A stretch of DNA of 36,372 nucleotides from Clostridia bacterium. GTDB taxonomy: Bacteria; Bacillota; Clostridia; Christensenellales; Aristaeellaceae. The translations under genes and the position numbers were made by a program. The stretch's first letter is position 1. The number at the start of each line of letters is the position of its first letter. This document shows, piece by piece, positions 15,993 to 29,061 of the stretch. Below the pieces are notes generated by a model. It had not been told where the DNA came from and searched no databases. It saw nothing but the letters and a program-made list of their open reading frames with translations. Location: positions 1-36,372 of the forward strand of contig JAUMVG010000032.1 in the NCBI GenBank assembly GCA_030530315.1, read 5' to 3'.

Positions 15993-16514
15993 ATGCCGAG
16001 GATCATCATTGCAGGCACATCGGAAGTCAGCCGCGCACAGCTTTCCCGACTTCTGACCGCCTCCGGCTTCAATGTTTTCCGCCTCTGCGCCTCGGAGGGC
16101 GAGCTGCGGCGGACGCTGAATGAATGCGAGGACGGCATCGTGCTCGTCTCCGGCTTCCAGCCGGAGGACATCTCCGCCGACTTTGGGGACAGCTTCCAGT
16201 TCCTGCTGATCGGCAGGCCGGAGACCCTCTCCGCCTGCGAATCGCCCGGGGTATTCAAGCTGGCCTATCCCTGTCCCGGCAGCGCCGTGCTCGGCGCGGT
16301 GGAGATGCTGACTCAGCTGCACTACATGCGCCTGCCCCACAGGAGCGACGGAGACAGGGCCCTGGTGGAGGAAGCGAAGCGCCTGCTGATGCACCGCGAG
16401 GGCATCGACGAGCCCACCGCCCACCGTCGCATGCAGGTTTACGCCATGCGGCATGGCATCAAAATGACGGATTATGCCGCGCAGTTGTTACAAGGGGGTT
16501 CCAACGATGTATGA
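15993..16514 (+). CDS. ANTAR-domain RNA-binding antitermination regulator
   Basis: 173-aa two-domain protein. Residues 1-110 form a receiver-like domain, but the strand where a phospho-acceptor Asp is expected reads GIVLVSGF, so it is probably a pseudo-receiver not controlled by phosphorylation. Residues about 120-170 are an ANTAR domain (LVEEAKRLLMHREGIDE, then MQVYAMRHGIKMTDYA), which binds paired hairpins in nascent RNA and prevents termination. The ATG at 15993 lies behind AGGAGG. Its stop overlaps the gltB start by 8 bp. Its place between glnA and gltB strongly suggests control of nitrogen-assimilation genes, with the glnA leader terminator as a candidate target. Confidence 0.85.
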   Translation: MPRIIIAGTSEVSRAQLSRLLTASGFNVFRLCASEGELRRTLNECEDGIVLVSGFQPEDISADFGDSFQFLLIGRPETLSACESPGVFKLAYPCPGSAVLGAVEMLTQLHYMRLPHRSDGDRALVEEAKRLLMHREGIDEPTAHRRMQVYAMRHGIKMTDYAAQLLQGGSNDV

Positions 16515-19500
16515 CCAGCAATACCCGCTCTATCATCCCGAATTGGAGCATGAATCCTGCGGCGTCGGCGCGATCGTCGATCTGAGCGGTCGCGCCACCC
16601 ACCGCACCGTGGATCAGGCGCTCACCATCGTGGAGCGCCTGGCCCATCGCGCGGGTTCAGACGCCCTGGGCACCACGGGCGACGGCGTGGGCATCATGAC
16701 CCAGCTGCCCCACGAATTCTTCACCGCATGGGCGCGGGAGGAAGGCATATCCCTCGGCAAGCCCGGCGACTACGGCGTCGGGATGTTCTTTTTGCCCGAG
16801 GATGAAGTTGGGGTTCAAAACATCTGCCGCATCTTCGACCAGCTGGCGGTCTCGGAGGGCATCTCCGTGCTGGGCTGGCGGGACGTGCCCTGCCACCCGG
16901 CCCAGCTGGGCGCGGGGGCACGCCGCACCATGCCCCGCATAAGGCAGTGCTTTTTGAAGCGGCCCGCAGGCATCGCTCCGGGTGCCGACTTCGACCGCAA
17001 GCTGTACATCCTGCGCCGGGTGTTTGAAAAGCAGGATAAGGACACCTACATCTGTTCGCTGTCCAGCCGCACCATCGTCTACAAGGGCATGATGCTGGTC
17101 AGCCAGCTTCGGTCCTTCTACGACGATCTGCAGGACGTGCGCTATGTGTCCCAGATGGCCATGGTGCACTCCCGCTTTTCCACCAACACCTTCCCCAGCT
17201 GGTCCAAGGCCCACCCCCAGCGGATGCTCTTGCACAACGGCGAGATCAACACCATCCGCGGCAACCACGACCGCATGAAGGCCCGGGAGGAGACCATGCG
17301 CTCGTCGGTCATGGGCGACAGCATGAAGCGCGTGCTGCCCGTGGTGGACCCGGACGGCAGCGATTCCCAGATGCTGGACAACACGCTGGAGTTCCTGGCC
17401 ATGAACGGCTTCCCGCTGCCTCTGGCGGGCATGGTGCTGCTGCCGGAGCCCTGGCAGGGGGAAAGGGAAAGCAAGCCCTGGCACGACCTGTACCGCTACT
17501 ATGCCACGATGATGGAGCCCTGGGACGGCCCCGCGGCGATGTTGTATTCCGATGGCGACAGCGTGTGCGCGTCGCTGGACCGCAACGGCCTGCGGCCCCT
17601 GCGCTGCGCCCTGACCGACGATCAGCGGCTGATCCTGTCCAGCGAGGCGGGCGTGCTGTTTGAAGAAAACGCCCACATCCGACGCCGCTGGAAGCTGAAG
17701 GGCGGGGACGTGCTGATGGCCGACCTGCGCACGGGGGAACTGCTGAAATCGGAGGCGTTGAAGACATACTATGCCGGGCAGCACCCCTATGGGGAGTGGG
17801 TGAAGAACATCATTCGTCTGGAGCTACTCCCTCCGTCGCCTCACGGCGACACCTCCCTCGGAGAGGGAGGCATTGGCTCCCGTCCTGGCTCCCTCTCTGA
17901 GGGAGCTGGCACGCGAAGCGTGACTGAGGGAGTCGAGGAAACTGGCTGGCGCAGCCAGACTGAGGGAGTCGACGATGTGGAGACCCTCTGCAAGGCCTTC
18001 GGCTATGCCTGGGAAGACGTACAGGAGGTCATCCTGCCGATGGCGGAAACCGGACAGGAGCCCATCGTGTCCATGGGCGCGGACGAGCCCATCGCCGCCC
18101 TGTCCAAGGCCCACCCGCCGCTGTACGATTACTTCAAGCAGCGCTTCGCCCAGGTGACCAACCCGCCCATCGACGCGCTGCGGGAAGAATGCAAGACGGA
18201 CTGCTCCATCACCATCGGCGACGACGGGAACCTCCTGTCCCGGGACCCCGACAGCTGCACCGTGCTGGAGCTGCCCTCGCCGGTGCTGACGGAGGCGGAA
18301 CTGCGGCGCATCCGGGGCATCGACCACCCGTCGTTTTCAGTAAAGGAGATCTCCCTGCTCTACCCGGTCAAAACCCGGCTCCGCCAGGCCATGCGGGACT
18401 TCTTCGCCGCCTGCGACGCAGCCTGCGTTGGCAGCGCGAACATCCTCATTTTGTCCGACCGGGGCGTGGACGCGGGCCGTCTGGCCATCCCCTCGCTGCT
18501 GGCGGTGTCCGCGCTGGAGCAGCACCTGATACACATCAAGAAGCGCACGAAGGTCTCCGTGATCCTGGAGAGCGGCGAGCCCCGGGACACCCACCAGCTG
18601 GCCATGCTGATCGCCTACGGCGCGCGGGCGGTGTGCCCGTATTTGGCCCACGCGGTCATCCGGAAGGGCCTGTCGGAGAACGCGATAGTAAACTACAATA
18701 AAGCCCTCACCGCCGGTGTTCTGAAGATCGCCTCCAAGATGGGCGTTTCCACGCTGCAGGCCTACCAGAGCGCCCAGCTGTTCGAGGCGGTGGGGCTGGA
18801 TGCGCAGTTCGTCGATCAGTATTTCACCAACACCCCCGCCACCCTGGGCGGCAGGGGCCTGCACGACGTGGAAGCCGACAGCCGATTCCATCACAACGCG
18901 GCCTACGCAGACCCGCTGAAAAGCGGTCTGACCAGCGTCGGCAGGCACAAGCTGCGCACCGGCGAGGGAGCCGAGGAGCACCTCTACAGCCCGAGGGTCA
19001 TCCACCTGCTGCAGCAGGCGGTGTGGACCAACGACAAATCGAAGTTCGACGAATACGCCAAACTGGTGGAGAACGACGGCCCGCACACCATCCGCGCGTC
19101 GCTGGACTTCAATTACGGGGTGTGCAATCCCGTGCCGCTGGACGAGGTGGAGCCCGTTGAATCCATCGTCCGGCGCTTCAGGACCGGGGCCATGTCCTAC
19201 GGCTCCATCTCCCGGGAGGCCCACGAGTGCATGGCGGTCGCCATGAACCGCCTGGGCGGCAGGAGCAACAGCGGTGAGGGCGGCGAGCTGCCGGAGCGCT
19301 TCGGCACCGACCTCAACTCCGCCATCAAGCAGGTGGCCTCCGGGCGCTTCGGCGTGACCCGGGACTATCTGCTGTCCGCGAAGGAGATCCAGATCAAGAT
19401 GGCCCAGGGCGCGAAACCCGGCGAGGGCGGCCATCTGCCCGGCGCGAAGGTGACGGAGAGCGTGGCAAAGACCCGCTGCTCCACCCCGGGGATCTCGCTG

Positions 19501-20907
19501 ATCTCTCCCCCGCCCCACCATGACATCTACTCCATCGAGGATCTGGCGGAACTCATCTACGATCTGCAATGCGCCAATGAAGACGCCAAGGTCACGGTCA
19601 AGCTGGTGTCCTCCACCGGCGTGGGCACCATCGCCAGCGGCGTGGCCAAGGCCGGGGCGGGCGGCATCCTGATCTCCGGCGGCGAGGGCGGCACCGGCGC
19701 GGCCCCCATGTCCAGCGTGCATCACGCGGGCCTGCCCTGGGAGATCGGCCTGGCCGAGGCCCACCAGGTATTGTGCCGGAACCGCCTCAGGCAGACCGTG
19801 ACGCTGGAGACCGACGGCAAGCTGATGAGCGGGCACGACGTGGCCGTGGCGCTGCTGCTGGGCGCGGAGGAATTCGGCTTCGCCACCGCGCCGCTGATCA
19901 CCATGGGCTGCCGTATGATGCGGGTGTGCCAGCTGGGCACCTGTCCCTTCGGCGTGGCGACGCAAAATCCAGAATTGCGCAAGCGGTTCGTCGGCAAGCC
20001 GGAGTACGTGGAGCGCTTCATGATCTTCGTAGCGCAGCAGCTGCGGGAGATCATGGCACGGCTCGGCGCGCGGACGGTGAACGAGCTAGTGGGCCGAAGC
20101 GACCTTTTGAGGATGAAGGACGGCGCGCCCATGGACCTCAGCGCCCTGATCGGCTTTAGCCGGAACACCCACGTCCAGCCGGAATCAAAGCACGATTTCA
20201 GGCTCCATGAGCGCATGGACGCGCGACTTATACAGGACCATGTGCAGCTGACCACCACCGACCGGGCCTTCGGAACGCTTTTAAAGGGCGATCGGCACAT
20301 CCAGGCCCAGGGCTGCGGCGGGCAGAGCTTCGGCGCGTTCCTGCCCAAAGGCCAGAGCGTCGCGCTGTACGGCGTGGCCAACGACTACCTGGGCAAGGGC
20401 CTCTCCGGCGGCACGCTGGCCATCTGCCCGCCCGCGGACGCGGTGTGGAACCCGAAGGACACATTGATCGGCAATGTGGCGCTCTACGGCGCGACCTCCG
20501 GCTATGCCTTCATCGCGGGCATGGCGGGCGAGCGCTTCGCCGTGCGCAATTCCGGCGCGTGGGCCGTGGTGGAGGGCGTGGGCGACCACGGCTGCGAGTA
20601 CATGACCGGCGGCCGCGTGGCCGTGCTTGGGCCGGTGGGCGACAACTTTGGCGCGGGCATGTCCGGCGGCATCGCCTGGGTGCTGGACGAGGGCGGCACG
20701 CTGGAGCGGCGCGTCAACAGGGGTCTGGTCAAGGTGCACGAGGTCACATCAGAGCAGGCCGGGGAGCTGCGAAAGCTGCTGGAGATGCACCTTGAAAGGA
20801 CAGGTTCTGTCAAAGCAAAGGAAATCCTTGAGGATTATGATAAATGGCTGTCGCGGTTCAAGGCGATCATATCGGATGAGTATTTGAACTATTTAAGGAG
20901 GGCGTGA
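16507..20907 (+). CDS. gltB: Glutamate synthase large subunit (GOGAT alpha)
   Basis: Converts 2-oxoglutarate and glutamine into two glutamates. The 1466-aa precursor has a class II amidotransferase whose nucleophile Cys18 (HESCGVG) is exposed by removal of a 17-residue propeptide. A central domain and the FMN/2-oxoglutarate domain follow, then the 3Fe-4S cluster pattern Cx5Cx4C at Cys1135, Cys1141 and Cys1146, and the C-terminal beta-helix. Residues about 440-488 are encoded by a 144-bp repeat insertion in the linker after the amidotransferase. The start at 16507 (GGGGG upstream) overlaps the ANTAR stop. gltD follows directly. Apart from the insertion the sequence looks complete. Confidence 0.96.
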   Translation: MYDQQYPLYHPELEHESCGVGAIVDLSGRATHRTVDQALTIVERLAHRAGSDALGTTGDGVGIMTQLPHEFFTAWAREEGISLGKPGDYGVGMFFLPEDEVGVQNICRIFDQLAVSEGISVLGWRDVPCHPAQLGAGARRTMPRIRQCFLKRPAGIAPGADFDRKLYILRRVFEKQDKDTYICSLSSRTIVYKGMMLVSQLRSFYDDLQDVRYVSQMAMVHSRFSTNTFPSWSKAHPQRMLLHNGEINTIRGNHDRMKAREETMRSSVMGDSMKRVLPVVDPDGSDSQMLDNTLEFLAMNGFPLPLAGMVLLPEPWQGERESKPWHDLYRYYATMMEPWDGPAAMLYSDGDSVCASLDRNGLRPLRCALTDDQRLILSSEAGVLFEENAHIRRRWKLKGGDVLMADLRTGELLKSEALKTYYAGQHPYGEWVKNIIRLELLPPSPHGDTSLGEGGIGSRPGSLSEGAGTRSVTEGVEETGWRSQTEGVDDVETLCKAFGYAWEDVQEVILPMAETGQEPIVSMGADEPIAALSKAHPPLYDYFKQRFAQVTNPPIDALREECKTDCSITIGDDGNLLSRDPDSCTVLELPSPVLTEAELRRIRGIDHPSFSVKEISLLYPVKTRLRQAMRDFFAACDAACVGSANILILSDRGVDAGRLAIPSLLAVSALEQHLIHIKKRTKVSVILESGEPRDTHQLAMLIAYGARAVCPYLAHAVIRKGLSENAIVNYNKALTAGVLKIASKMGVSTLQAYQSAQLFEAVGLDAQFVDQYFTNTPATLGGRGLHDVEADSRFHHNAAYADPLKSGLTSVGRHKLRTGEGAEEHLYSPRVIHLLQQAVWTNDKSKFDEYAKLVENDGPHTIRASLDFNYGVCNPVPLDEVEPVESIVRRFRTGAMSYGSISREAHECMAVAMNRLGGRSNSGEGGELPERFGTDLNSAIKQVASGRFGVTRDYLLSAKEIQIKMAQGAKPGEGGHLPGAKVTESVAKTRCSTPGISLISPPPHHDIYSIEDLAELIYDLQCANEDAKVTVKLVSSTGVGTIASGVAKAGAGGILISGGEGGTGAAPMSSVHHAGLPWEIGLAEAHQVLCRNRLRQTVTLETDGKLMSGHDVAVALLLGAEEFGFATAPLITMGCRMMRVCQLGTCPFGVATQNPELRKRFVGKPEYVERFMIFVAQQLREIMARLGARTVNELVGRSDLLRMKDGAPMDLSALIGFSRNTHVQPESKHDFRLHERMDARLIQDHVQLTTTDRAFGTLLKGDRHIQAQGCGGQSFGAFLPKGQSVALYGVANDYLGKGLSGGTLAICPPADAVWNPKDTLIGNVALYGATSGYAFIAGMAGERFAVRNSGAWAVVEGVGDHGCEYMTGGRVAVLGPVGDNFGAGMSGGIAWVLDEGGTLERRVNRGLVKVHEVTSEQAGELRKLLEMHLERTGSVKAKEILEDYDKWLSRFKAIISDEYLNYLRRA
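17826..17969. repeat. 144-bp hairpin repeat inserted in frame within gltB
   Basis: The element begins ACTCCCTC and ends GAGGGAGT (terminal inverted repeats) and is exactly 48 codons long. Inside are several small palindromes: GTCGCC/GGCGAC, CCTCCCTC/GAGGGAGG, GCTCCCTC/GAGGGAGC, CACGC/GCGTG and CTGGCT/AGCCAG. The same repeat style occurs between genes in many gut Clostridia (general knowledge). Here it is translated as a Gly/Ser/Thr/Glu-rich loop without a stop. Confidence 0.85.
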
Positions 20908-20909
20908 CG

Positions 20910-22289
20910 ATGGGCAAGCCTACTGGATTCATGGAAGTCGCCCGCGCGGAGAACCCATACCGCGATGAGGCGGCGCGCCTTCGCGACTTTGACGACCTGC
21001 ACATCTCCCAGCCCGCCGACGCACGTCATGCGCAGGCCTCCCGCTGCATGAACTGCGGCGTGCCCTTCTGCCAGTCGGACTTCGGCTGTCCGCTGCACAA
21101 CCTGATCCCGGAGTGGAACGACCTGCTGTACCGCGGCAGAGAGCGGGAGGCGCTGGAACGGCTCTTGCAGACCGCGCCCTTCCCGGAATTCACGGGACGG
21201 GTATGCCCGGCGCTGTGCGAGAAGGCGTGCAACCTGGAAAACGATGCTTTAACGAACCGTGACAACGAGCTGTATCTGATCGAGACGGGATTTGAGAAGG
21301 GCTGGATCCATCCGAGGATCCCCCGCAGGCGCACGGGCAGGCGCGTGGCCGTGGTGGGCAGCGGCCCCGCCGGGCTGGCGGCGGCCGACCTGCTGAACCG
21401 GCTGGGACACGAGGTCACGGTCATCGAGCGCGCCGACCGCGCCGGGGGCCTTTTGATGTACGGCATCCCCAACATGAAGCTGCCAAAGGGCGTCGTGGAG
21501 CGCCGCATCCGGCTGATGGAGACCGAGGGCGTGCGCTTCCTTCTGAATACCGAGGCGAAGCCCGAAATCATGGAGGAATACGACGCCGTGGCGCTCTGCG
21601 GCGGCGCGAAGAAGCCGCGCGCCTTGAACGTGGCGGGCATCTTTGCCGTGGACTACCTGACGGCGGCCACCCGGGCCGTGCTGTCCGGAGATGAGCCCGC
21701 CATCGACGCCAGGGGCAGGCATGTGGTGGTCGTGGGCGGCGGCGACACCAGCAACGACTGCGTGGGCACGGCGCTCCGGCAGGGCTGCGCCTCCGTCATC
21801 CAGCTGGAGATGATGCCCGCGCCGCCCGTCGAGCGGACCGCCGGCAACCCCTGGCCCGAATGGCCCCGCACGCTGCGCACCGACTACGGCCAGCTGGAAG
21901 CCATCCATCGGCAGGGCGCGGACCCGCGCGTCTACGAGACGACGGTCAAAAGCATCCAACCGGGAGCTGTGGAAACCGTGAAGCTCAAGGGCTTCGATCC
22001 CATCCCCGGCACAGAGCGGGCCCTCCCCTGCGACCTGCTGCTCATCGCGGCGGGCTTCGTGGGCTGCGAGACGGCCACCGCCGAGCGGTTCAACGTAAAG
22101 CTCAATCCAAGGGGCTGCATGATGCCCGAAAGCGGGGGCCACCATCTGCGGAACAACCTCTTCTCCGCGGGCGATATGCGCACGGGCCAGTCGCTGATGG
22201 TGCGGGCCCTGGCGGACGGCCGGGCGGCGGCACTGGAGATCGAGCGGTATTTGGGTAACTTGGAATTTGTCGGGCTGACGCCCAATTGA
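20910..22289 (+). CDS. gltD: Glutamate synthase small subunit (GOGAT beta)
   Basis: 459-aa NADPH-dependent flavoprotein that passes electrons to GltB. The N-terminal Cys-rich part (CMNCGVPFC near residue 45, GCPLHN, then CPALCEKAC) carries the 4Fe-4S clusters. An FAD motif GSGPAGLAAA lies near residue 148 and an NADPH motif GGGDTSNDC near residue 275. I chose ATG 20910 with AAGGAGG upstream; a GTG at 20904 is too close to that site. The last residues (EFVGLTPN) and the stop codon lie inside a MITE that starts at 22260, so the native C-terminus has been replaced or trimmed. The core appears intact. Confidence 0.95.
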   Translation: MGKPTGFMEVARAENPYRDEAARLRDFDDLHISQPADARHAQASRCMNCGVPFCQSDFGCPLHNLIPEWNDLLYRGREREALERLLQTAPFPEFTGRVCPALCEKACNLENDALTNRDNELYLIETGFEKGWIHPRIPRRRTGRRVAVVGSGPAGLAAADLLNRLGHEVTVIERADRAGGLLMYGIPNMKLPKGVVERRIRLMETEGVRFLLNTEAKPEIMEEYDAVALCGGAKKPRALNVAGIFAVDYLTAATRAVLSGDEPAIDARGRHVVVVGGGDTSNDCVGTALRQGCASVIQLEMMPAPPVERTAGNPWPEWPRTLRTDYGQLEAIHRQGADPRVYETTVKSIQPGAVETVKLKGFDPIPGTERALPCDLLLIAAGFVGCETATAERFNVKLNPRGCMMPESGGHHLRNNLFSAGDMRTGQSLMVRALADGRAAALEIERYLGNLEFVGLTPN

Positions 22290-22466
22290 GAATTGAGAAT
22301 GGAGAATTGGGAATGGTGGTGCAAATCCCTTCGGGATTTGTTTTGATTACGCCCCACAATTTGTGATTCTACGATGATTTGCCACCATTTAATCAGAGAA
22401 ATCCGTAAGGATTTCAACATAAATTCTCAATTCCCAATTCTCAATTCTCAATTAACTAAATTCCAA
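22260..22466. mobile_element. MITE copy 1 (207 bp), covering the end of gltD
   Basis: Bounded by TTGGAATTT (22260-22268) and AAATTCCAA (22458-22466). Just inside are AATTGAGAATTGAGAAT and its inverted counterparts (ATTCTCAATT repeats). The interior has hairpins AAATCCC/GGGATTT and GAAATCC/GGATTTC. No protein is encoded. A near-identical copy at 25417-25609 differs by two substitutions and a 14-bp deletion. I see no clear target duplication. Confidence 0.85.
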
Positions 22467-22502: not shown

Positions 22503-24125
22503 ATGACCAAATACATCTTTGTCACCGGCGGCGTGGTGTCCGGCCTGGGGAAGGGCATCACCGCAGCGTCGCTGGGGCGGCTTTTGAAGGCGCGGGGCCT
22601 GAAGGTGGCCGCCCAGAAACTGGACCCCTACATCAACGTGGATCCCGGCACCATGAGCCCCTACCAGCACGGCGAGGTGTACGTCACCGAGGACGGCGCG
22701 GAGACCGACCTGGACCTGGGCCACTACGAGCGCTTCATCGACGAGGATCTGAACAGGTTTTCCAACCTGACCACGGGAAAGGTCTATTCGGGCGTCATCC
22801 AGCGGGAGCGCCGGGGCGGCTACCTGGGCAGCACGGTGCAGACCATCCCCCACATCACCGATGAGATCAAGACCTTCATCTACCAGGTAGGCAAAAAGAC
22901 GGGCGCCGACGTGGTCATCACCGAGATCGGCGGCACCATCGGCGACATCGAATCCCAGCCCTTCATCGAGGCCATCCGCCAGGTGGGGCTGGAGGTGGGC
23001 CGCGAAAACGCGCTGTACGTCCACGTCACGCTGGTACCGTACCTGAAGGCCAGCGGTGAGCACAAGTCGAAGCCCACGCAGCACTCCGTGAAGGAATTGC
23101 AAGGCATGGGCATCAGCCCCAACATCATCGTGCTCCGGGTGGACGAGCCCATTACGGACGAGAGCATCTTCGCCAAGATCGCCCACTTCTGCAACGTGAA
23201 GCCCGACTGCGTCATCGAGAACCGAACGCTGCCCAACCTGTACGAAGCCCCGCTGATGCTGGAGGAAGCGAACCTGTCCGGCATCGTCTGCCGGGAGCTG
23301 GGCATCGACGCGCCGGAGCCGGATTTGGCGGAGTGGCGGGCGCTGGTGGAGCGCATCCGCCATCAATCCAGGACTGTGAGAATCGGCCTGGTGGGCAAGT
23401 ATGTCCAGCTGCACGACGCCTATCTGTCCGTGGCGGAGGCCCTGCGCCACGCGGGGTACGCGCTGGACGGCGGTGGGTCCGCCTCCACGAGGGTTGAGAT
23501 TGAATGGATCGACTCCGAGGCGATCAACGAGGAGAATTGCGTCGAAACACTGTCCCGCGTCCAAGGGATCATCGTCCCCGGCGGCTTCGGGAGCCGGGGC
23601 ATCGAGGGGATGATCCTGGCGGTGAAGTACGCCCGCGAGCATCACGTGCCCTACTTCGGCATCTGCCTGGGCATGCAGATCGCCGTGATCGAGTACGCGC
23701 GGCACGTGGCGGGGCTTGAAAACGCCAATTCCCACGAATTCGACGAGAAGAGTCCCTATCAGGTCATCCATTATATGCCCGACCAGAACGACGACATCGA
23801 CAAGGGCGGCACGCTGCGGCTGGGGAGATACCCCTGCGTGCTAAAGCCGGGGACCGCCATCGCCGCCTGTTACGGGACCACCGAGATCAGCGAGCGCCAC
23901 CGTCACCGCTATGAGTTCAACAACGCCTACCGACACGCGCTGCAGGCCGCGGGCCTTGCCCTCTCCGGCCTCTCCCCGGACGGGCGTCTGGTGGAGACCG
24001 TGGAGCTCCCCGGCGAGCGCTTCTTCATCGGCGTGCAGTTCCACCCGGAGTTCAAGAGCCGCCCCAACAAGCCTCACCCGCTGTTTGTGGGTTTCGTCAA
24101 TGCCTCCCTGAAAACCGAATTTTAA
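22503..24125 (+). CDS. pyrG: CTP synthase
   Basis: Makes CTP from UTP, ATP and glutamine in the cytoplasm. The 540-aa product has the synthetase domain starting [17 protein letters not shown], with the conserved [13 protein letters not shown], and the class I amidotransferase with Cys388 in FGICLGMQ and His in FHPEFKSRP. Length is typical. AGGAG lies upstream of the ATG. It follows gltD after the MITE; as a glutamine consumer it fits the hub. No terminator is evident between 24126 and the promoter at 24150. Confidence 0.97.
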
Positions 24126-24149
24126 CGCTTTAGCAATGTAGCATGGGTA

Positions 24150-24177
24150 TTGACATTGAAGCAAAACGTGTTATAAT
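24150..24177 (+). promoter_or_regulatory. Promoter of the leader peptide-ABC transporter operon
   Basis: TTGACA (24150-24155) and TATAAT (24172-24177) with 16 bp between, both perfect hexamers. The start would be near 24184, giving about 265 nt of leader before the binding-protein gene. Confidence 0.8.
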
Positions 24178-24211
24178 CCTTATCAAACACAGAGGAAAGG
24201 TGGGAATAGAC

Positions 24212-24355
24212 ATGAAGCGCGAAATCCGTTCCACGCAGTCTGTTTCCAGCCTTCTCATGCCCTCTGTCCTGTCCGTCAATCATGCTGTGCGATTTATCTT
24301 CGCGCAGCTGTTTTTTGGCATTTTTGGCTTTGGGTTTACGCCGATGCCCATCTGA
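24212..24355 (+). CDS. Phe-rich leader peptide (candidate attenuation leader)
   Basis: 47-codon ORF behind a purine-rich ribosome site (GGAAAGGTGGG). The first half is ordinary; residues 28-42 hold seven Phe (positions 28, 30, 34, 35, 38, 40 and 42), then it ends TPMPI and a TGA. About 30 nt after the stop comes a strong terminator hairpin (24386-24416), then the ABC transporter genes. This is the layout of amino-acid attenuators such as pheA, pheST and trp leaders: ribosome stalling at Phe codons when Phe-tRNA is scarce would change folding of the downstream RNA. CCCATC near the ORF end (24347-24352) can pair with GATGGG in the terminator 3' arm, a possible antiterminator. Function is inference; a small membrane peptide is the alternative. 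Confidence 0.6.
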   Translation: MKREIRSTQSVSSLLMPSVLSVNHAVRFIFAQLFFGIFGFGFTPMPI

Positions 24356-24385
24356 AGAATCGCGGACATGGATCATAGATCATCG

Positions 24386-24416
24386 AAGCGGCTCTCCGGA
24401 TGGGAGGGCCGCTTTT
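24386..24416 (+). terminator. Attenuator hairpin before the ABC transporter genes
   Basis: A 12-bp stem: AAGCGGCTCTCC (24386-24397) pairs with GGAGGGCCGCTT (24403-24414) with one G-T pair and a GGATG loop. The stem ends in four T, two of them inside the stem, and a second T-run follows at about 24427. It lies between the Phe-rich ORF and the binding-protein ribosome site (AGGAGG), so it is positioned for conditional termination. Confidence 0.65.
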
Positions 24417-24448
24417 ATGATACATTCTTTTTCAGGAGGAACCCCATT

Positions 24449-25393
24449 ATGAAGAAACTGCTTGCCATCCTCGTCGCCGTCGTGCTCTGTCTGGGCATGG
24501 CCGCCGTTGCCGAAGAGACCTACACCGTGGGCGTGTGCCAGCTGGTGCAGCATCCCGCGCTGGACGCCGCCACCCAGGGCTTCCAGGACGCCCTGACCGA
24601 AAAGCTGGGCGATGCCGTCGCCTTTGACGTGCAGAACGCCTCCGGCGATTCCAACACCTGCTCCACCATCGTGAACGGCTTCGTCTCCGACAATGTGGAC
24701 CTGATCATGGCCAACGCCACCCCGGCCCTGCAGGCTGCCGTGGCCGCCACCGGCGACATCCCGATCCTGGGCACCTCGGTCACCGACTACGCCACCGCCC
24801 TGGACATCGACGACTGGACCGGCGCGACGGGCATCAACGTTTCCGGCACCAGCGACCTGGCCCCGCTGAATGAGCAGGCCGCGATGCTGAACGAGCTGTT
24901 CCCGGATGCCAAGGTGGTGGGCCTTCTGTACTGCTCCGCCGAGCCGAACAGCAAGTACCAGGTGGACGTGATCACCGGCTATCTCACCGAACTGGGCTAT
25001 GAGACCGTGGAGTTCACTTTCGCGGACAGCAACGACGTGGCCAGCGTGGCCCAGTCCGCCTGCGACGGCTGCGATGTGATCTACATCCCCACCGATAACA
25101 CAGCCGCGTCCTGCACCGAGGCCATCCGCAACGTGGTGGAGCCCGCCGCCAAGCCGGTCATCGCCGGCGAGGAGGGCATCTGCAAGGGCTGCGGCGTGGC
25201 GACGCTGTCCATCAGCTACTACGACCTGGGCTACGCCACCGGCGAGATGGCCTATGAGGTGCTGGCAAACGGCGCCGATGTCGCCACGCTGGATATCGCC
25301 TTTGCCCCCAACGTCACCAAGGAGTACAACGCCGAACTGGCCGAACTGCTGGGCGTGACCGTGCCCGAGGATTATGTGGCGATTGAGGGCTGA
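24449..25393 (+). CDS. ABC transporter substrate-binding protein (TrpX-like family)
   Basis: 314-aa exported binding protein. It begins with MKKLL, a hydrophobic core and a probable signal peptidase I site after AAVA; the Cys in VVLCLG is not a good lipobox. The mature part (TYTVGVCQLVQHPALDAATQGF) is typical of the ABC_sub_bind family (PF04392), whose members bind aromatic amino acids such as Trp or Phe (from memory of family structures). The ATG at 24449 has AGGAGG upstream. The permease and ATPase follow after a MITE. The Phe-rich leader suggests the ligand is phenylalanine or a precursor; that is inference. Confidence 0.88.
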   Translation: MKKLLAILVAVVLCLGMAAVAEETYTVGVCQLVQHPALDAATQGFQDALTEKLGDAVAFDVQNASGDSNTCSTIVNGFVSDNVDLIMANATPALQAAVAATGDIPILGTSVTDYATALDIDDWTGATGINVSGTSDLAPLNEQAAMLNELFPDAKVVGLLYCSAEPNSKYQVDVITGYLTELGYETVEFTFADSNDVASVAQSACDGCDVIYIPTDNTAASCTEAIRNVVEPAAKPVIAGEEGICKGCGVATLSISYYDLGYATGEMAYEVLANGADVATLDIAFAPNVTKEYNAELAELLGVTVPEDYVAIEG

Positions 25394-25416
25394 TACTGCT
25401 GAGTTGGCGCGGTAGA

Positions 25417-25609
25417 TTGGAATTAGTCGGGCTGACGCCCAATTGAGAATTGAGAATGGAGAATTGGGAATGGTGGTGCAAATCCCTTCGGGATTTGTTT
25501 TGATTACGCCCCACAATTTGTGATTCTACGATGATTTGCCACCATTTAATCAGAGAAATCCGTAAGGATTTCAACATAAATTCTCAATTCTCAATTAATT
25601 AAATTCCAA
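25417..25609. mobile_element. MITE copy 2 (193 bp), between binding-protein and permease genes
   Basis: Bounded by TTGGAATTA (25417-25425) and AAATTCCAA (25601-25609). Same interior as copy 1 at 22260-22466, lacking one 14-bp CCAATTCTCAATTC-like unit. It sits within the ABC operon, where its hairpins could reduce transcription or stabilise the upstream mRNA, giving more binding protein than permease. Confidence 0.85.
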
Positions 25610-25650: not shown

Positions 25651-26559
25651 TTGAACATTTTCTCTCTACTAAACGCCCTTCCCGGCGCGGTGGCCCAGGG
25701 TCTGATCTGGGGCATCATGGCCATCGGCGTCTACATCACCTACAAGGTGCTGGACCTGGCGGACCTGACCGTGGACGGCACCATGGCCACGGGAGGCGCG
25801 GTGTGCGTGATGCTGATGCTGAACGGCGTGAACGTCTGGCTGGCGCTGCTGTGCGCGGTGCTGGCGGGCATGCTGGCAGGGCTCATGACCGGCGTCTTCC
25901 ACACCGCCATGGGCATCCCGCCAATCCTGTCGGGCATCCTCACCCAGCTTTCGCTGTATTCCATCAATCTGGCCATCATGGGCTTCAAGGCCAACCAGGG
26001 CATCAACGTCACCAAATACGCATTGATCGTCAGCCAGCGGAACGTGCGGGTGATCAATCTGTCCAACCCGATCTTCACCTCGCTCATCGTGCTCATACTG
26101 GTGATCGCGGTGCTGTACTGGTTCTTCGGAACGGAGCTGGGCAGTTCTCTTCGCGCCACCGGCGCAAACGCGGCCATGAGCCGGGCCCAGGGCATCAACA
26201 CGAACGTCTGCAAGATCCTGGGCCTGATGATCTCCAACGGCATCGTGGCGCTGTCCTCGGCCATGCTTTCCCACTATCAGGGCTTCGTGGACGTGAACAT
26301 GGGCCGCGGGGCCATCGTGATCGGTCTGGCCGCCGTCATCATCTCGGACGTGATCTTCGGAAAGCTGTTCCGCAACTTCGCGCTGAAGCTCGCCGGCGTC
26401 GCCATCGGCGCGGTGCTCTACTACATCGTCATACAGGTGGTGCTGTGGCTGGGGCTGAACACGAACCTCTTGAAGCTGCTGTCGGCGCTGATCGTGGCCG
26501 TGTTCCTTGCGGTGCCCTACTGGAAGGCAAGCGTGAAAGGGGGCAGGGGCCATGCTTGA
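25651..26559 (+). CDS. ABC transporter permease (TrpY-like)
   Basis: 302-aa membrane protein with about eight hydrophobic segments, of the branched-chain-permease-related BPD_transp_2 type (start region LPGAVAQGLIWGIMAIGVYI; DLTVDGTMATGG is a family signature). Translation starts with TTG at 25651, with GGAGG at 25639-25643, 7 nt upstream. It overlaps the ATPase gene by 8 bp. With the binding protein and ATPase it makes a complete importer. Confidence 0.9.
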   Translation: MNIFSLLNALPGAVAQGLIWGIMAIGVYITYKVLDLADLTVDGTMATGGAVCVMLMLNGVNVWLALLCAVLAGMLAGLMTGVFHTAMGIPPILSGILTQLSLYSINLAIMGFKANQGINVTKYALIVSQRNVRVINLSNPIFTSLIVLILVIAVLYWFFGTELGSSLRATGANAAMSRAQGINTNVCKILGLMISNGIVALSSAMLSHYQGFVDVNMGRGAIVIGLAAVIISDVIFGKLFRNFALKLAGVAIGAVLYYIVIQVVLWLGLNTNLLKLLSALIVAVFLAVPYWKASVKGGRGHA

Positions 26560-27346
26560 GCTGGTGAACGTTCGAAAGACCTTTAACCCGAAGACCGTCA
26601 ACGAGAAGATCGCGCTGGACGGGCTGAACCTGCGCCTCGCGGACGGCGATTTCGTGACCGTCATCGGCGGCAACGGCGCTGGAAAGAGCACCATACTGAA
26701 CGCCATCGCGGGCGTCTGGCCCATCGACAGCGGGCGCATCGCCATCGATGGCCGCGAAGTCACCCACCTGCCGGAATACCGACGCGCGGCGCTGCTGGGG
26801 CGCGTGTTCCAGGACCCCATGACCGGCACCGCCGCCACGATGCAGATCGAGGAAAACCTGGCGCTCGCCGCCCGGCGGGGCCAGAGCCGCACGCTGAAGA
26901 TCGGCATCACCCGCCAGGAGCGGGAAGCCTATCGGGAAAAGCTGGCAAGGCTTGGCCTGGGCCTGGAGGACCGCATGACCGCGAAGGTCGGCCTGCTCTC
27001 CGGCGGCCAGCGCCAGGCGCTGACGCTTCTGATGGCGACCCTGAAGAAGCCCAAGCTGCTGCTTCTGGACGAGCACACCGCCGCGCTGGATCCCCGCACC
27101 GCCCAGAAGGTGCTGGAGCTGTCCGAGCAGATCGTGACCGAGAACAACCTCATGACCCTGATGGTCACCCACAACATGCGCGATGCCATCCGCTACGGCA
27201 ACCGGCTCATCATGATGAACGAGGGCCACGTAATCCTGGACATCTCCGGGGACGAAAAAAAGCATCTCACCGTGGAGATGCTGATGAACGCCTTCGCCAA
27301 AGCCAGCGGCGAGGCCTTCGCCAACGACAGAATACTGCTGTCCTGA
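26552..27346 (+). CDS. ABC transporter ATP-binding protein (TrpZ-like)
   Basis: 264-aa cytoplasmic ATPase. Walker A GGNGAGKST is at residues 39-47, the signature LLSGGQRQAL near residue 150, Walker B KLLLLDEHTAALDP, and the switch His in MVTHNMRDA. It drives the permease encoded just upstream. The start overlaps the permease stop, so translation is coupled. A terminator follows at 27491-27541. Confidence 0.95.
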   Translation: MLELVNVRKTFNPKTVNEKIALDGLNLRLADGDFVTVIGGNGAGKSTILNAIAGVWPIDSGRIAIDGREVTHLPEYRRAALLGRVFQDPMTGTAATMQIEENLALAARRGQSRTLKIGITRQEREAYREKLARLGLGLEDRMTAKVGLLSGGQRQALTLLMATLKKPKLLLLDEHTAALDPRTAQKVLELSEQIVTENNLMTLMVTHNMRDAIRYGNRLIMMNEGHVILDISGDEKKHLTVEMLMNAFAKASGEAFANDRILLS

Positions 27347-27617: not shown

Positions 27618-27693
27618 CAAGAGGAATTCATCGAAGCGTTTATGTTATATTGCAGATGACACTTTCAGCCGAAAATGAACGGAGGCAATGGAA

Positions 27694-29061
27694 ATGAAGC
27701 AAAAGGCAATGGAACTCAAGCTCGTCGTGCGGCCCATCGTGGGCTGTCTCACCCACTCCCACTTCTGGGAGGGCCCCTGCCGCGCAGGGCATTTGGAGGA
27801 CATGACCCCGGAGGCCGAGAAGCGCATGGCCGACGCGGCGTTCGCCCATGCCGTGGAGACGCTGAAGGGCGCGACGGATGAGATCGAATTCCTGCCCGCC
27901 GTGGACGCCAGGTATGACGAGAAGTTCGTGGTCGGCGAGGACATCTACGCCCAGATCGAGGAGGGCATGGACAGGGTGGACTTCTTCCTGTGCATGAACT
28001 GGCGCATTCCCAAACTGGAGCGCTACCGCAAGCCCGTGGTGATCCTGCAGAACGGCAACGAGGGCATCGACTTTGCCGCCTACTGCCGCTCCATCGGCGT
28101 GGAGGCCTACGTGTGCATGGACCTTCAGGACCTGAACGAGATCGCCCACATCCTGTGGGTGCGCAAGGCCATCGCCAACACCCGGGCGCTGGTGCTCACC
28201 GCCGGCGGCCAGCCCACCTTCGGCATCCAGAGCCTGATCCGCGACCCGGAGATCCTGCGCCAGAAGTACGGCTTCGAGGTCGTAAAGCTGCCCTTTAGCA
28301 GCATCGTGCCCTACATGGACCAAATCTCCAACGAGGAGGCCCGCCCCATCGCCGAGCAGATCATCCATGGCGCGAACGACGTGAAGGTCAACACCGACTG
28401 GTTCATCAACGACATCAAGTATTACCTGGCCGCGAAGAAGATGATGGATGTCTACCAGTGCAATGCCTTCTCCACCGCCTGCCACGAGCTGTGCACCTCC
28501 GAGATCCCCCAGAACCGCAAGTTCACCCCCTGCATGTGCCATTCGCTGATGAAGGGCGAGGGCATCCCCAGCGCCTGCGAGGAGGATCTGAACGCCATGA
28601 TGGCCATGCTGGTGATGCAGTACAGCGCCAACCGGCCCGCGTTCATGGGCAACCCCAACATGGAGACCGACGAGCTTCTGCGGCTGCACCACGCCGTGCC
28701 TGCGCTGTGCATGAACGGCTATGGCACAAAGCCCCTGGAATACAGCCTGTGGGCCTTCACCGGCCAGGGCTTCGGCGGCAAGCTGCAGATCGACTTCGCC
28801 CAGAACCAAAGCAACTACGTCACCCTGGGCCGCTTCAATCCCGCGGGCGACACCATGTGCGTCAAGGTGGGCGAGGTCATCAAGTCCGAGTTCGACGACG
28901 TGTATTGCAGCCCCTATTATTACATCAGGATGGACGACGCCCGGGAGTTCATGCACAATCTGGCGGGCTTCGGCCACCATCAGGTGCTGATCTTCGGCGA
29001 CCATATGAAGCAGATCAAAAAGATCGCAAAGGTCATGGGCTTCAGGGTATTGGAAGGATGA
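27694..29061 (+). CDS. L-fucose/L-arabinose isomerase-like protein
   Basis: 455-aa cytoplasmic protein related to the FucI/AraA sugar isomerase fold. The recognisable part is CMCHSLMKGEGIPSACEEDLNA near residue 285 (read here in two pieces, CMCHSLMKGEG and IPSACEEDLNA), which matches the CE-D segment of L-fucose isomerase, and AGGQPTFGIQS earlier. It is shorter than FucI (about 590 aa) and Cys-rich, so the substrate is uncertain and it may not be a sugar isomerase. I chose ATG 27694, with GGAGG 8 nt upstream, over ATG 27688. It overlaps the cysteine desulfurase-like gene by 4 bp, an odd pairing for a sugar gene. Confidence 0.72.
   Translation: MKQKAMELKLVVRPIVGCLTHSHFWEGPCRAGHLEDMTPEAEKRMADAAFAHAVETLKGATDEIEFLPAVDARYDEKFVVGEDIYAQIEEGMDRVDFFLCMNWRIPKLERYRKPVVILQNGNEGIDFAAYCRSIGVEAYVCMDLQDLNEIAHILWVRKAIANTRALVLTAGGQPTFGIQSLIRDPEILRQKYGFEVVKLPFSSIVPYMDQISNEEARPIAEQIIHGANDVKVNTDWFINDIKYYLAAKKMMDVYQCNAFSTACHELCTSEIPQNRKFTPCMCHSLMKGEGIPSACEEDLNAMMAMLVMQYSANRPAFMGNPNMETDELLRLHHAVPALCMNGYGTKPLEYSLWAFTGQGFGGKLQIDFAQNQSNYVTLGRFNPAGDTMCVKVGEVIKSEFDDVYCSPYYYIRMDDAREFMHNLAGFGHHQVLIFGDHMKQIKKIAKVMGFRVLEG

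Follow-up and report, generated by a model that had tools for sequence, protein, structure and literature searches.

A Candidate Aromatic Leader-Peptide Attenuator Upstream of a TrpX-like Transporter Operon in Clostridia and Its Apparent Exchange with T-Boxes

We analyzed a 36,372-nucleotide stretch of DNA from a Clostridia bacterium of the family Aristaeellaceae (hereafter the window) and found that a TrpX-like ABC transporter operon is preceded by an element which is very probably a ribosome-mediated transcription attenuator with a leader peptide sensing the charging of aromatic tRNA. This assignment, made from comparative sequence analysis, concerns the class of mechanism; we are less confident about the exact role of one hairpin, H1, and about the masking of an RNA segment, C, by a ribosome at the stop codon. 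The leader open reading frame (ORF), its conserved aromatic run, two covarying and mutually exclusive helices, and the spacing between the aromatic codons and C were computed, and from these we infer translation, ribosome stalling, termination efficiency, and the signal. Related gut and rumen Clostridia appear, judging from the genes compared here, to have swapped this type of leader with T-boxes repeatedly.

Organization of the Leader Region

The leader region is placed between pyrG, which ends at 24125, and the transporter operon. All features described below are on the forward strand. A sigma-70-type promoter (TTGACA-16 nt-TATAAT, 24150..24177) shows a 12/12 match and has TG ahead of its -10 hexamer, in agreement with the perfect hexamers of the original prediction; shuffled sequence contains a mean of 0.4 promoter-like sites, and relatives have promoter-like hexamers at the corresponding position (by eye). 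It is followed by a Shine-Dalgarno-like site, GAGGAAAGGTGGG (24192..24204), which ends 7 nt upstream of the leader ATG and is similar, by eye, in leaders across the genus of the window. The leader ORF (24212..24355, ATG to TGA) comprises 47 codons plus UGA and encodes MKREIRSTQSVSSLLMPSVLSVNHAVRFIFAQLFFGIFGFGFTPMPI. Seven Phe codons (residues 28, 30, 34, 35, 38, 40, and 42) fall within 15 codons (24293..24337). Thus, both the 47-codon ORF with its ribosome site and the seven Phe codons within 15, as originally proposed, were recovered by our count. The run consists of Phe only, with no Tyr codon in the whole leader, and six of its seven Phe codons are TTT, compared with 48 TTT versus 223 TTC in 14 coding sequences of the window.

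The transporter genes encode a TrpX-like substrate-binding protein (SBP; 24449..25393, PF04392, Pfam E-value 1.5e-56; 221.6 bits against NCBIfam TrpX, under the family cut-off of 390), a permease (25651..26559, PF02653), and an ATPase (26552..27346, PF00005). No Rfam family matched the window at gathering score. In particular, the T-box family (RF00230) was neither detected at gathering in the window nor present among the five matches at E ≤ 5 over 24100-24500, and Phe_leader and Trp_leader matched neither at gathering in the window nor at E ≤ 5 over 24100-24500. A T-box or other Rfam RNA at this leader was therefore rejected.

Several other features of the window were recorded. A 186-nt direct repeat, 98% identical and with inverted ends (AATTGAGAATTGAGAAT...), occurs at 22254-22439, at the end of a gltD-like gene, and at 25411-25596, between the SBP and permease genes; it looks like a small mobile repeat. 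A 457-aa protein encoded past the transporter (27688-29058) has no Pfam match and a faint NCBIfam match to sulfoquinovose isomerase (E = 0.0032). A long ORF at 16474-20907, glutamate synthase-like by eye, carries a low-complexity insert, GDTSLGEGGIGSRPGSLSEGAGTRSVTEGVEETGWRSQTEGVDD.

Conservation of the Aromatic Codon Run

The comparison drew on 202 upstream regions of homologous binding-protein genes: 30 came from a first genome search, 12 from a second, 80 were picked among the matches listed by the second search, and the others were the best 80 of 584 loci in named genomes, with some genomes present in two collections. Once regions under 150 nt and regions with more than half of their 8-mers in common had been removed, 161 non-redundant regions were left, 21 with a T-box (L027 having been added by eye) and 140 without. 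A leader ORF was called when a Shine-Dalgarno-like site preceded an ORF with at least six Phe, Trp, or Tyr residues in 12 codons, and dinucleotide shuffles and the opposite strand served as controls. Such ORFs were detected in 43 of the 140 regions lacking a T-box, versus 0.7 expected from shuffles, and in none of the 140 on the opposite strand or of the 21 T-box loci. At a threshold of seven aromatic residues, the count was 22 of 140 versus 0.05 in shuffles. Some of the 43 ORFs are, by eye, fragments of other genes (e.g., L064, L122, and L192), and many of the remaining regions contain neither a leader ORF nor a T-box. The excess over shuffles argues against a chance ORF, which we rejected, and indicates that the ORF and its Phe density are conserved in relatives, as a Phe attenuator at this site would imply.

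The dense windows of 49 curated leaders contain 253 Phe, 104 Tyr, and 15 Trp codons. Aromatic residues number 7.6 per 16 codons in frame versus 2.3 and 3.2 in the other two frames; as these 49 leaders were selected for aromatics, the shuffle and opposite-strand controls over the 140 regions are the fair test. The run reads ...RFIFAQLFFGIFGFGFTPMPI in the window, ...SFYYYYYYYYKK in L074, and ...RFYYYYYLYYYCCTASV in L071; the leaders of L154 and L020 read MFKFRFVFAYGFTYYFFRSCNSHLCCN and MKRYYGIANYWFWFSFTMRHSKVDL, respectively. Since poly-Tyr occurs in relatives where the window has UUU codons, a U tract alone is no explanation of the run, and an artefact of this kind was rejected on the basis of poly-Tyr and Trp-containing runs together with the preference for one reading frame. 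The mixture of Phe, Tyr, and some Trp, including poly-Tyr, suggests that the family-wide sensor is aromatic rather than specific for Phe. The original description as a Phe attenuator thus fits the window leader itself, whereas "aromatic attenuator" better describes the family.

Two Mutually Exclusive Helices

An intrinsic terminator hairpin with a U run (24385..24416) is supported by the minimum free energy (MFE) fold and by covariation. Its 5' arm starts 30 nt downstream of the leader stop codon, the distance originally estimated, and the hairpin has a 13-pair stem and a 5-nt loop within the MFE fold; the fold of a 240-nt stretch gave z = -5.05 against 200 shuffles. The U run is short (UUUU), and the hairpin was not flagged by a simple terminator scan. 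In relatives, a small hairpin (GAACC/GGTTC) was noticed by eye between the stop codon and the terminator.

The proposed antiterminator is formed by segment C (CCCAUCUG, 24347..24354), which spans the final two sense codons and the UG of the UGA stop, and segment C' (CGGAUGGG, 24397..24404) at the terminator apex. C' consists of the terminator loop plus one nucleotide of the 5' arm and two of the 3' arm, and the C:C' helix and the terminator are mutually exclusive. It had been suggested that CCCATC near the end of the ORF pairs with the 3' arm of the terminator; this motif is present, but the pairing we found is longer and takes the terminator apex.

Both helices were examined for covariation in 36 leaders of the same architecture (group A, alignment A2) against 500 shuffles, a test whose force is limited by the kinship of the sequences. 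The C:C' helix is 91.1% paired and the terminator 94.8%, and none of the 500 shuffles matched the pairing or the covariation score of either. Double changes, with both partners of a pair altered, affect five of eight pairs in C:C' (reached in 1/500 shuffles) and eight of 12 in the terminator (3/500), so that the covariation to be expected of a genuine terminator was indeed observed. When the alignment was slid by one to three columns, C:C' fell to 20-56% pairing and the terminator to 44-66%. Compensated versions of C:C' include TCGTCTAA x TTAGACGA in L074, CCGTCTGA x TCGGACGG in L060, and TTCCATCTGA x TCGGATGGAA in L056. Compared with dinucleotide shuffles of its own window, C:C' reached p < 0.05 in 26 of 37 leaders; it is absent or weak in L010, L018, L038, L049, and L115, which clearly fail this comparison, and is borderline (p 0.05-0.1) in L012, L017, L023, L034, L035, and L037, among which L023 was scored on a truncated terminator.

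Ribosome Position and the Proposed Switch

On the attenuator model, the leader would be transcribed by RNA polymerase while a ribosome translates the ORF. When charged aromatic tRNA (tRNA-Phe in the window) is ample, the ribosome would pass the Phe codons and sit at the stop on C; C, being covered, would be unable to pair, the terminator would form, and the transporter operon would not be transcribed. When charged tRNA is scarce, the ribosome would stall on an aromatic codon with its leading edge just short of C. Left free, C could pair with C' once the apex of the terminator has been transcribed, which would delay the terminator and let the polymerase read through.

The distances within the leaders fit the stalling side of such a switch in most cases and its masking side in about half. 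Thirty-six leaders were measured, and the 30 with a C:C' score of at least 16 were counted; the called C differs from the aligned C in L017 and L035. In 24 of the 30, C lies 12-24 nt downstream of the start of the last aromatic codon, and in 11 of these the distance is exactly 12 nt. The A site of a bacterial ribosome lies about 12-13 nt from its leading edge, and at the observed spacing a ribosome stalled on the run would mostly leave C free. In the other six, an aromatic codon starts 1-4 nt ahead of the called C, which a ribosome stalled on that codon would cover. The stop codon of 16 of the 30 leaders starts at most 3 nt ahead of, or at most 8 nt past, the first base of C; in these a finishing ribosome would mask C. 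In the remaining 14 it starts 15-37 nt past the start of C, and a ribosome waiting there would cover C incompletely. Masking of C at the stop is thus the weakest part of the attenuator model; where the stop is distant, passage of the ribosome rather than waiting may suffice.

Stepwise folding of the window leader, using MFE structures only and an assumed ribosome edge, placed C:C' in the MFE fold for 3' ends 24401 to 24410 when the ribosome was stalled at F35 or F42, and the terminator from 24413. A ribosome placed at UGA let the terminator start to form at 24407, and the hairpin had formed by 24410. C:C' was likewise seen for 3' ends 24401-24407 when no ribosome was present. Beyond 3' end 24413 the terminator prevails at equilibrium whatever the state of the ribosome; the switch would therefore have to be kinetic.

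The stop-codon region also bears on another type of sensor. TnaC is an arrest peptide, in which the nascent peptide together with the ribosome senses a free aromatic amino acid. If the present leader worked similarly, stalling at or near the stop would be caused by the free amino acid itself. By eye, several leaders of the window's genus end with TPxPI-stop, and C overlaps the stop codon, as a TnaC-like peptide might lead one to expect. However, the terminal PI is explained by RNA segment C, conservation beyond the run looks poor by eye, and the runs vary among Phe, Tyr, and Trp, and once are Leu. Moreover, a stall at the stop codon would mask C and favour the terminator. We consider an arrest peptide improbable and prefer the tRNA-sensing attenuator.

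Hairpin H1 within the Leader ORF

A second hairpin, H1 (GCUGUGCGA/UCGCGCAGC, followed by UGUUUUUU; 24284..24308), lies within the leader ORF and had been absent from the earlier description of the leader. It is the sole hairpin flagged by the simple terminator scan, and shuffles give 0.7 hairpins of this class. With 30 shuffles each, H1 has p = 0.03 in the window and p < 0.05 in 24 of 36 leaders; it fails the test in the other 12, in several of which the automatic search had picked other stems. Because its stem is GC-rich and its tail U-rich, H1 could terminate transcription when no ribosome follows; its probable role is either to pause the polymerase or to terminate early when the leader goes untranslated.

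The position of H1 raises the question of whether the Phe codons are simply a by-product of its terminator tail in a leader RNA lacking a sensing peptide. In group A, 27 of 36 leaders have 7-10 U in the 12 nt after the picked H1 stem (a different stem in two of the 27), and TTT is preferred over TTC in the window leader, both of which a U-rich tail would produce. On the other hand, poly-Tyr (TAT/TAC) and TGG runs occupy the equivalent position in other leaders, H1 is not visible by eye in L020, L101, L142, L154, L161, L175, and L193, the reading frame is preferred, and the run is recoded to Leu ahead of a leuA-like gene (see below). Such a by-product is very unlikely. Equally remote is a polarity attenuator responding to general translation, in which H1 would terminate unless a ribosome is close behind and the aromatic run would be of minor importance: H1 does resemble an intrinsic terminator located within the ORF, but the run tracks the pathway (aromatic genes, and once Leu) and sits where relatives have Phe or Tyr T-boxes.

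Besides the architecture with H1, a second one was seen by eye in group B (L142, L151, L154, L161, L175, and L193). These leaders have no visible H1; their Tyr codons pair with a segment akin to AGUAAUAG, and a further segment, akin to UUUGUGCUGC, looks like the 3' arm of the terminator. They seem to use the classical 1:2/2:3/3:4 attenuator scheme.

T-Boxes on Orthologous Genes and Substrate of the Binding Protein

In genera other than that of the window, orthologous genes are preceded by T-boxes. A regular expression for T-boxes flagged 27 of the 202 collected loci. The specifier, read by position, is UUC (Phe) in 18 (L111 by eye) and UAC (Tyr) in three (L022, L025, and L118), and was unread in six; of the latter, L109 has UUC according to the Rfam alignment, and L096 is perhaps not a T-box at all. 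TGG was also matched by the expression in L102, L103, and L111, away from the specifier position. Rfam recognized six of 20 T-box sources at gathering score (L022, L026, L088, L109, L118, and L121), so the other T-box calls are by motif alone.

The nearest solved structures to the window SBP are CD0873 (6hni, E = 3.5e-51), SP1069 (3lft), and VC_1101 (3lkv), which bind Tyr, Trp, and Phe, respectively, according to the available text of PMC6816091. In a pairwise alignment, the selectivity residues Glu and Tyr of CD0873 correspond to Glu241 and Tyr257 of the window SBP, and their equivalents are present in 84/85 and 85/85 homologs. A pocket of this type predicts Tyr, possibly together with Phe, as the cargo and speaks against Trp. 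The original assignment to the TrpX family, whose binding proteins take aromatic amino acids, is thus to be corrected in that the window SBP carries the two pocket residues of the Tyr-binding CD0873 and not the Trp type. As the window leader has no Tyr codon while the pocket residues match those of a Tyr binder, the signal and the cargo may differ.

Apparent Exchange between Leaders and T-Boxes

T-boxes and leader peptides both sense tRNA charging and are usually told apart by phylum. A tree was built from 85 selected binding proteins: 35 whose genes have a leader, 20 with a T-box (including L322, so labelled despite a doubtful motif), and 30 with neither; L201 was dropped for an in-frame stop. 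The leader label requires nine changes (7-9 in bootstrap replicates, with at least four forced by well supported branches) and the T-box label seven, counts that describe these 85 rows only because the rows were hand-picked to cover the labels. For example, L317, which has a Phe T-box, groups with the leader genes L335 and L336, and L331, with a Tyr-rich leader, groups with the Tyr T-box genes L022 and L329. Within this one family, homologous genes thus seem to have switched between leader peptides and T-boxes that correspond in amino acid.

Leaders Upstream of Other Genes

A covariance model (R1) was built from alignment A2. At E ≤ 0.01 it matched in 69 of 308 genomes of the family and 14 of 50 genera, matches weaker than about 1e-5 being mostly terminators or chance; in the genome of the window, the only leader copy at this threshold is the one described here. 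Among 26 sources searched, the window included, R1 recognized no T-box locus and no leader lacking H1: the window scored 4.8e-22, and the other five matches listed had E-values of 0.09 to 0.57. A plasmid search gave no match.

Fourteen R1 matches away from transporter genes were examined, and 11 of them precede a phenylacetate-CoA ligase-like (paaK-like) gene, which is followed by a small ACT-like protein. The former was named by family search in L234 (TIGR02155, 556 bits, under cut-off) and by eye in the rest; the latter was named by eye, with no NCBIfam match. Two further leaders (L238 and L246) precede DAHP synthase (aroF) and have Trp-rich runs (...FFGWWSW...). The L238 protein is above two NCBIfam cut-offs, the L246 protein is 89% identical to it, and a partial trpE lies downstream of aroF in L246.

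The remaining leader, L245 (contig G273:C226, 138-302), precedes a gene resembling 2-isopropylmalate synthase (leuA-like; 137.9 bits, far under cut-off) and has the same chassis with its run recoded to Leu (...ALRFLLLGLAPGPGPI... / RFLLLGLAPGPGPI); this version is known from one genome only (G273, 70% complete). R1 was trained on aromatic leaders, and the aromatic content of its matches is accordingly not independent evidence; the Leu run is, since R1 would not favour Leu. In relatives, a T-box motif precedes the leuA-like gene at all 14 other loci whose start was found (15 of 30 starts were not). Rfam confirmed the T-box in five of six sources, including the one in the genome of the window (L372); the specifier there is CUC (Leu) by eye.

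The distribution of the leader upstream of these genes is patchy. R1 matched none of 22 paaK-like genes from the genus of the window, including that of its own genome (L252); in L254 and L260, upstream ORFs with five aromatics in 14 codons were not accepted as leaders. At 1e-40, the genome of the window contains no DAHP synthase like that of L238. Two of 30 aroF loci examined have the leader (the start called for L299 was misplaced); ORFs with five aromatics in 14 codons in L281, L302, and L307 were likewise not accepted. In at least five relatives (L282-L285 and L296), DAHP synthase directly follows the transporter ATPase, where a leader would control transport and synthesis together.

A further 15 R1 matches had E-values of 6e-8, 3.6e-6, and, for the rest, 2e-4 to 8e-3. 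Three are aromatic leaders: L337, whose downstream gene has only begun, the degenerate L341, and L345. In L344, at the end of a contig, the match is a terminator that precedes a paaK-like gene, and the other 11 have no accepted leader. By eye, L345 and L347 show short ORFs and a similar terminator before a type Ib DAHP synthase-like gene; the ORF of L345 reads MRTSRLYAYFTLYCFSSTGCFDARAQA, and that of L347 is weak.

These observations could be read as evidence of a portable chassis for a ribosome sensor, made up of H1, the codon run, segment C at the stop, and a terminator with C' at its apex. It would have been recoded by its run alone, with Phe/Tyr before the transporter, Phe/Trp before paaK-like genes and aroF, and Leu before the leuA-like gene. 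On orthologous genes it would also have been exchanged repeatedly for T-boxes of the corresponding specificity, all within a single family of Clostridia from gut and rumen. We regard the case for this broader proposal as evenly balanced. The poly-Tyr, Phe/Trp, and single Leu versions may offer a natural series for studying how one tRNA-charging sensor replaces another and how leaders are recoded. Aromatic amino acid signals are also suggested for the transporter, paaK-like, and aroF operons of gut and rumen bacteria.

Comparison with Known Attenuators

To our knowledge, leader-peptide attenuators of his and ilv genes have already been published in Firmicutes. The original prediction had considered a leader-peptide attenuator notable in a phylum that normally uses T-boxes; the precedents for his (PMC2965389; PMC9413887) and a Leu-rich attenuator peptide in Staphylococcus aureus (PMC5794164), as far as the available texts go, take away this novelty. 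In the freely accessible published literature searched, by titles, the openings of abstracts, and passages of some of the papers, no aromatic leader was found before a TrpX-type transporter or in these bacteria. Thus, the principle of attenuation is known, and the leader set, the antiterminator at the terminator apex, and the exchange with Phe/Tyr T-boxes appear to be undescribed in that literature.

In the available text of the two papers on His leaders, these replace T-boxes in bacilli (PMC2965389), and His attenuators occur in the Bacillus cereus group, Eubacteriales, and Erysipelotrichales (PMC9413887). They resemble the present set in being regular leader peptides on genes that are otherwise under T-boxes or other kinds of control, but differ in sensing histidine, in regulating the his operon and hisS, and in their hosts (bacilli, Peptostreptococcaceae and Lutispora, and Erysipelotrichales). 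Upstream of aroF in Acholeplasma, the uORFC-13-1 motif includes a Phe-coding upstream ORF (PMC8632094). It shares with our leaders a Phe-codon ORF and a terminator before an aromatic gene outside Proteobacteria; it differs in having, in the part of that report available, at least one Phe codon only and no described pairing between stop region and terminator apex. The homologous transporter trpXYZ of Streptococcus suis is likewise under tRNA-charging control, but by a Trp T-box, which senses tRNA directly (PMC9382623, available in part), whereas the window has no T-box match.

Phe and Trp leader peptides control pheA, pheST, and trp in Proteobacteria, and their leaders are similar to ours in having a short ORF with runs of pathway codons, a terminator, an alternative antiterminator, and a stall upon starvation. 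The leaders described here are different in belonging to another phylum and in their mixed Phe/Tyr/Trp runs. The window also has no Rfam match at gathering, and its leader differs in structure: the antiterminator takes the apex of the terminator with a 5' strand located at the stop codon, and an extra hairpin, H1, lies ahead of the run.
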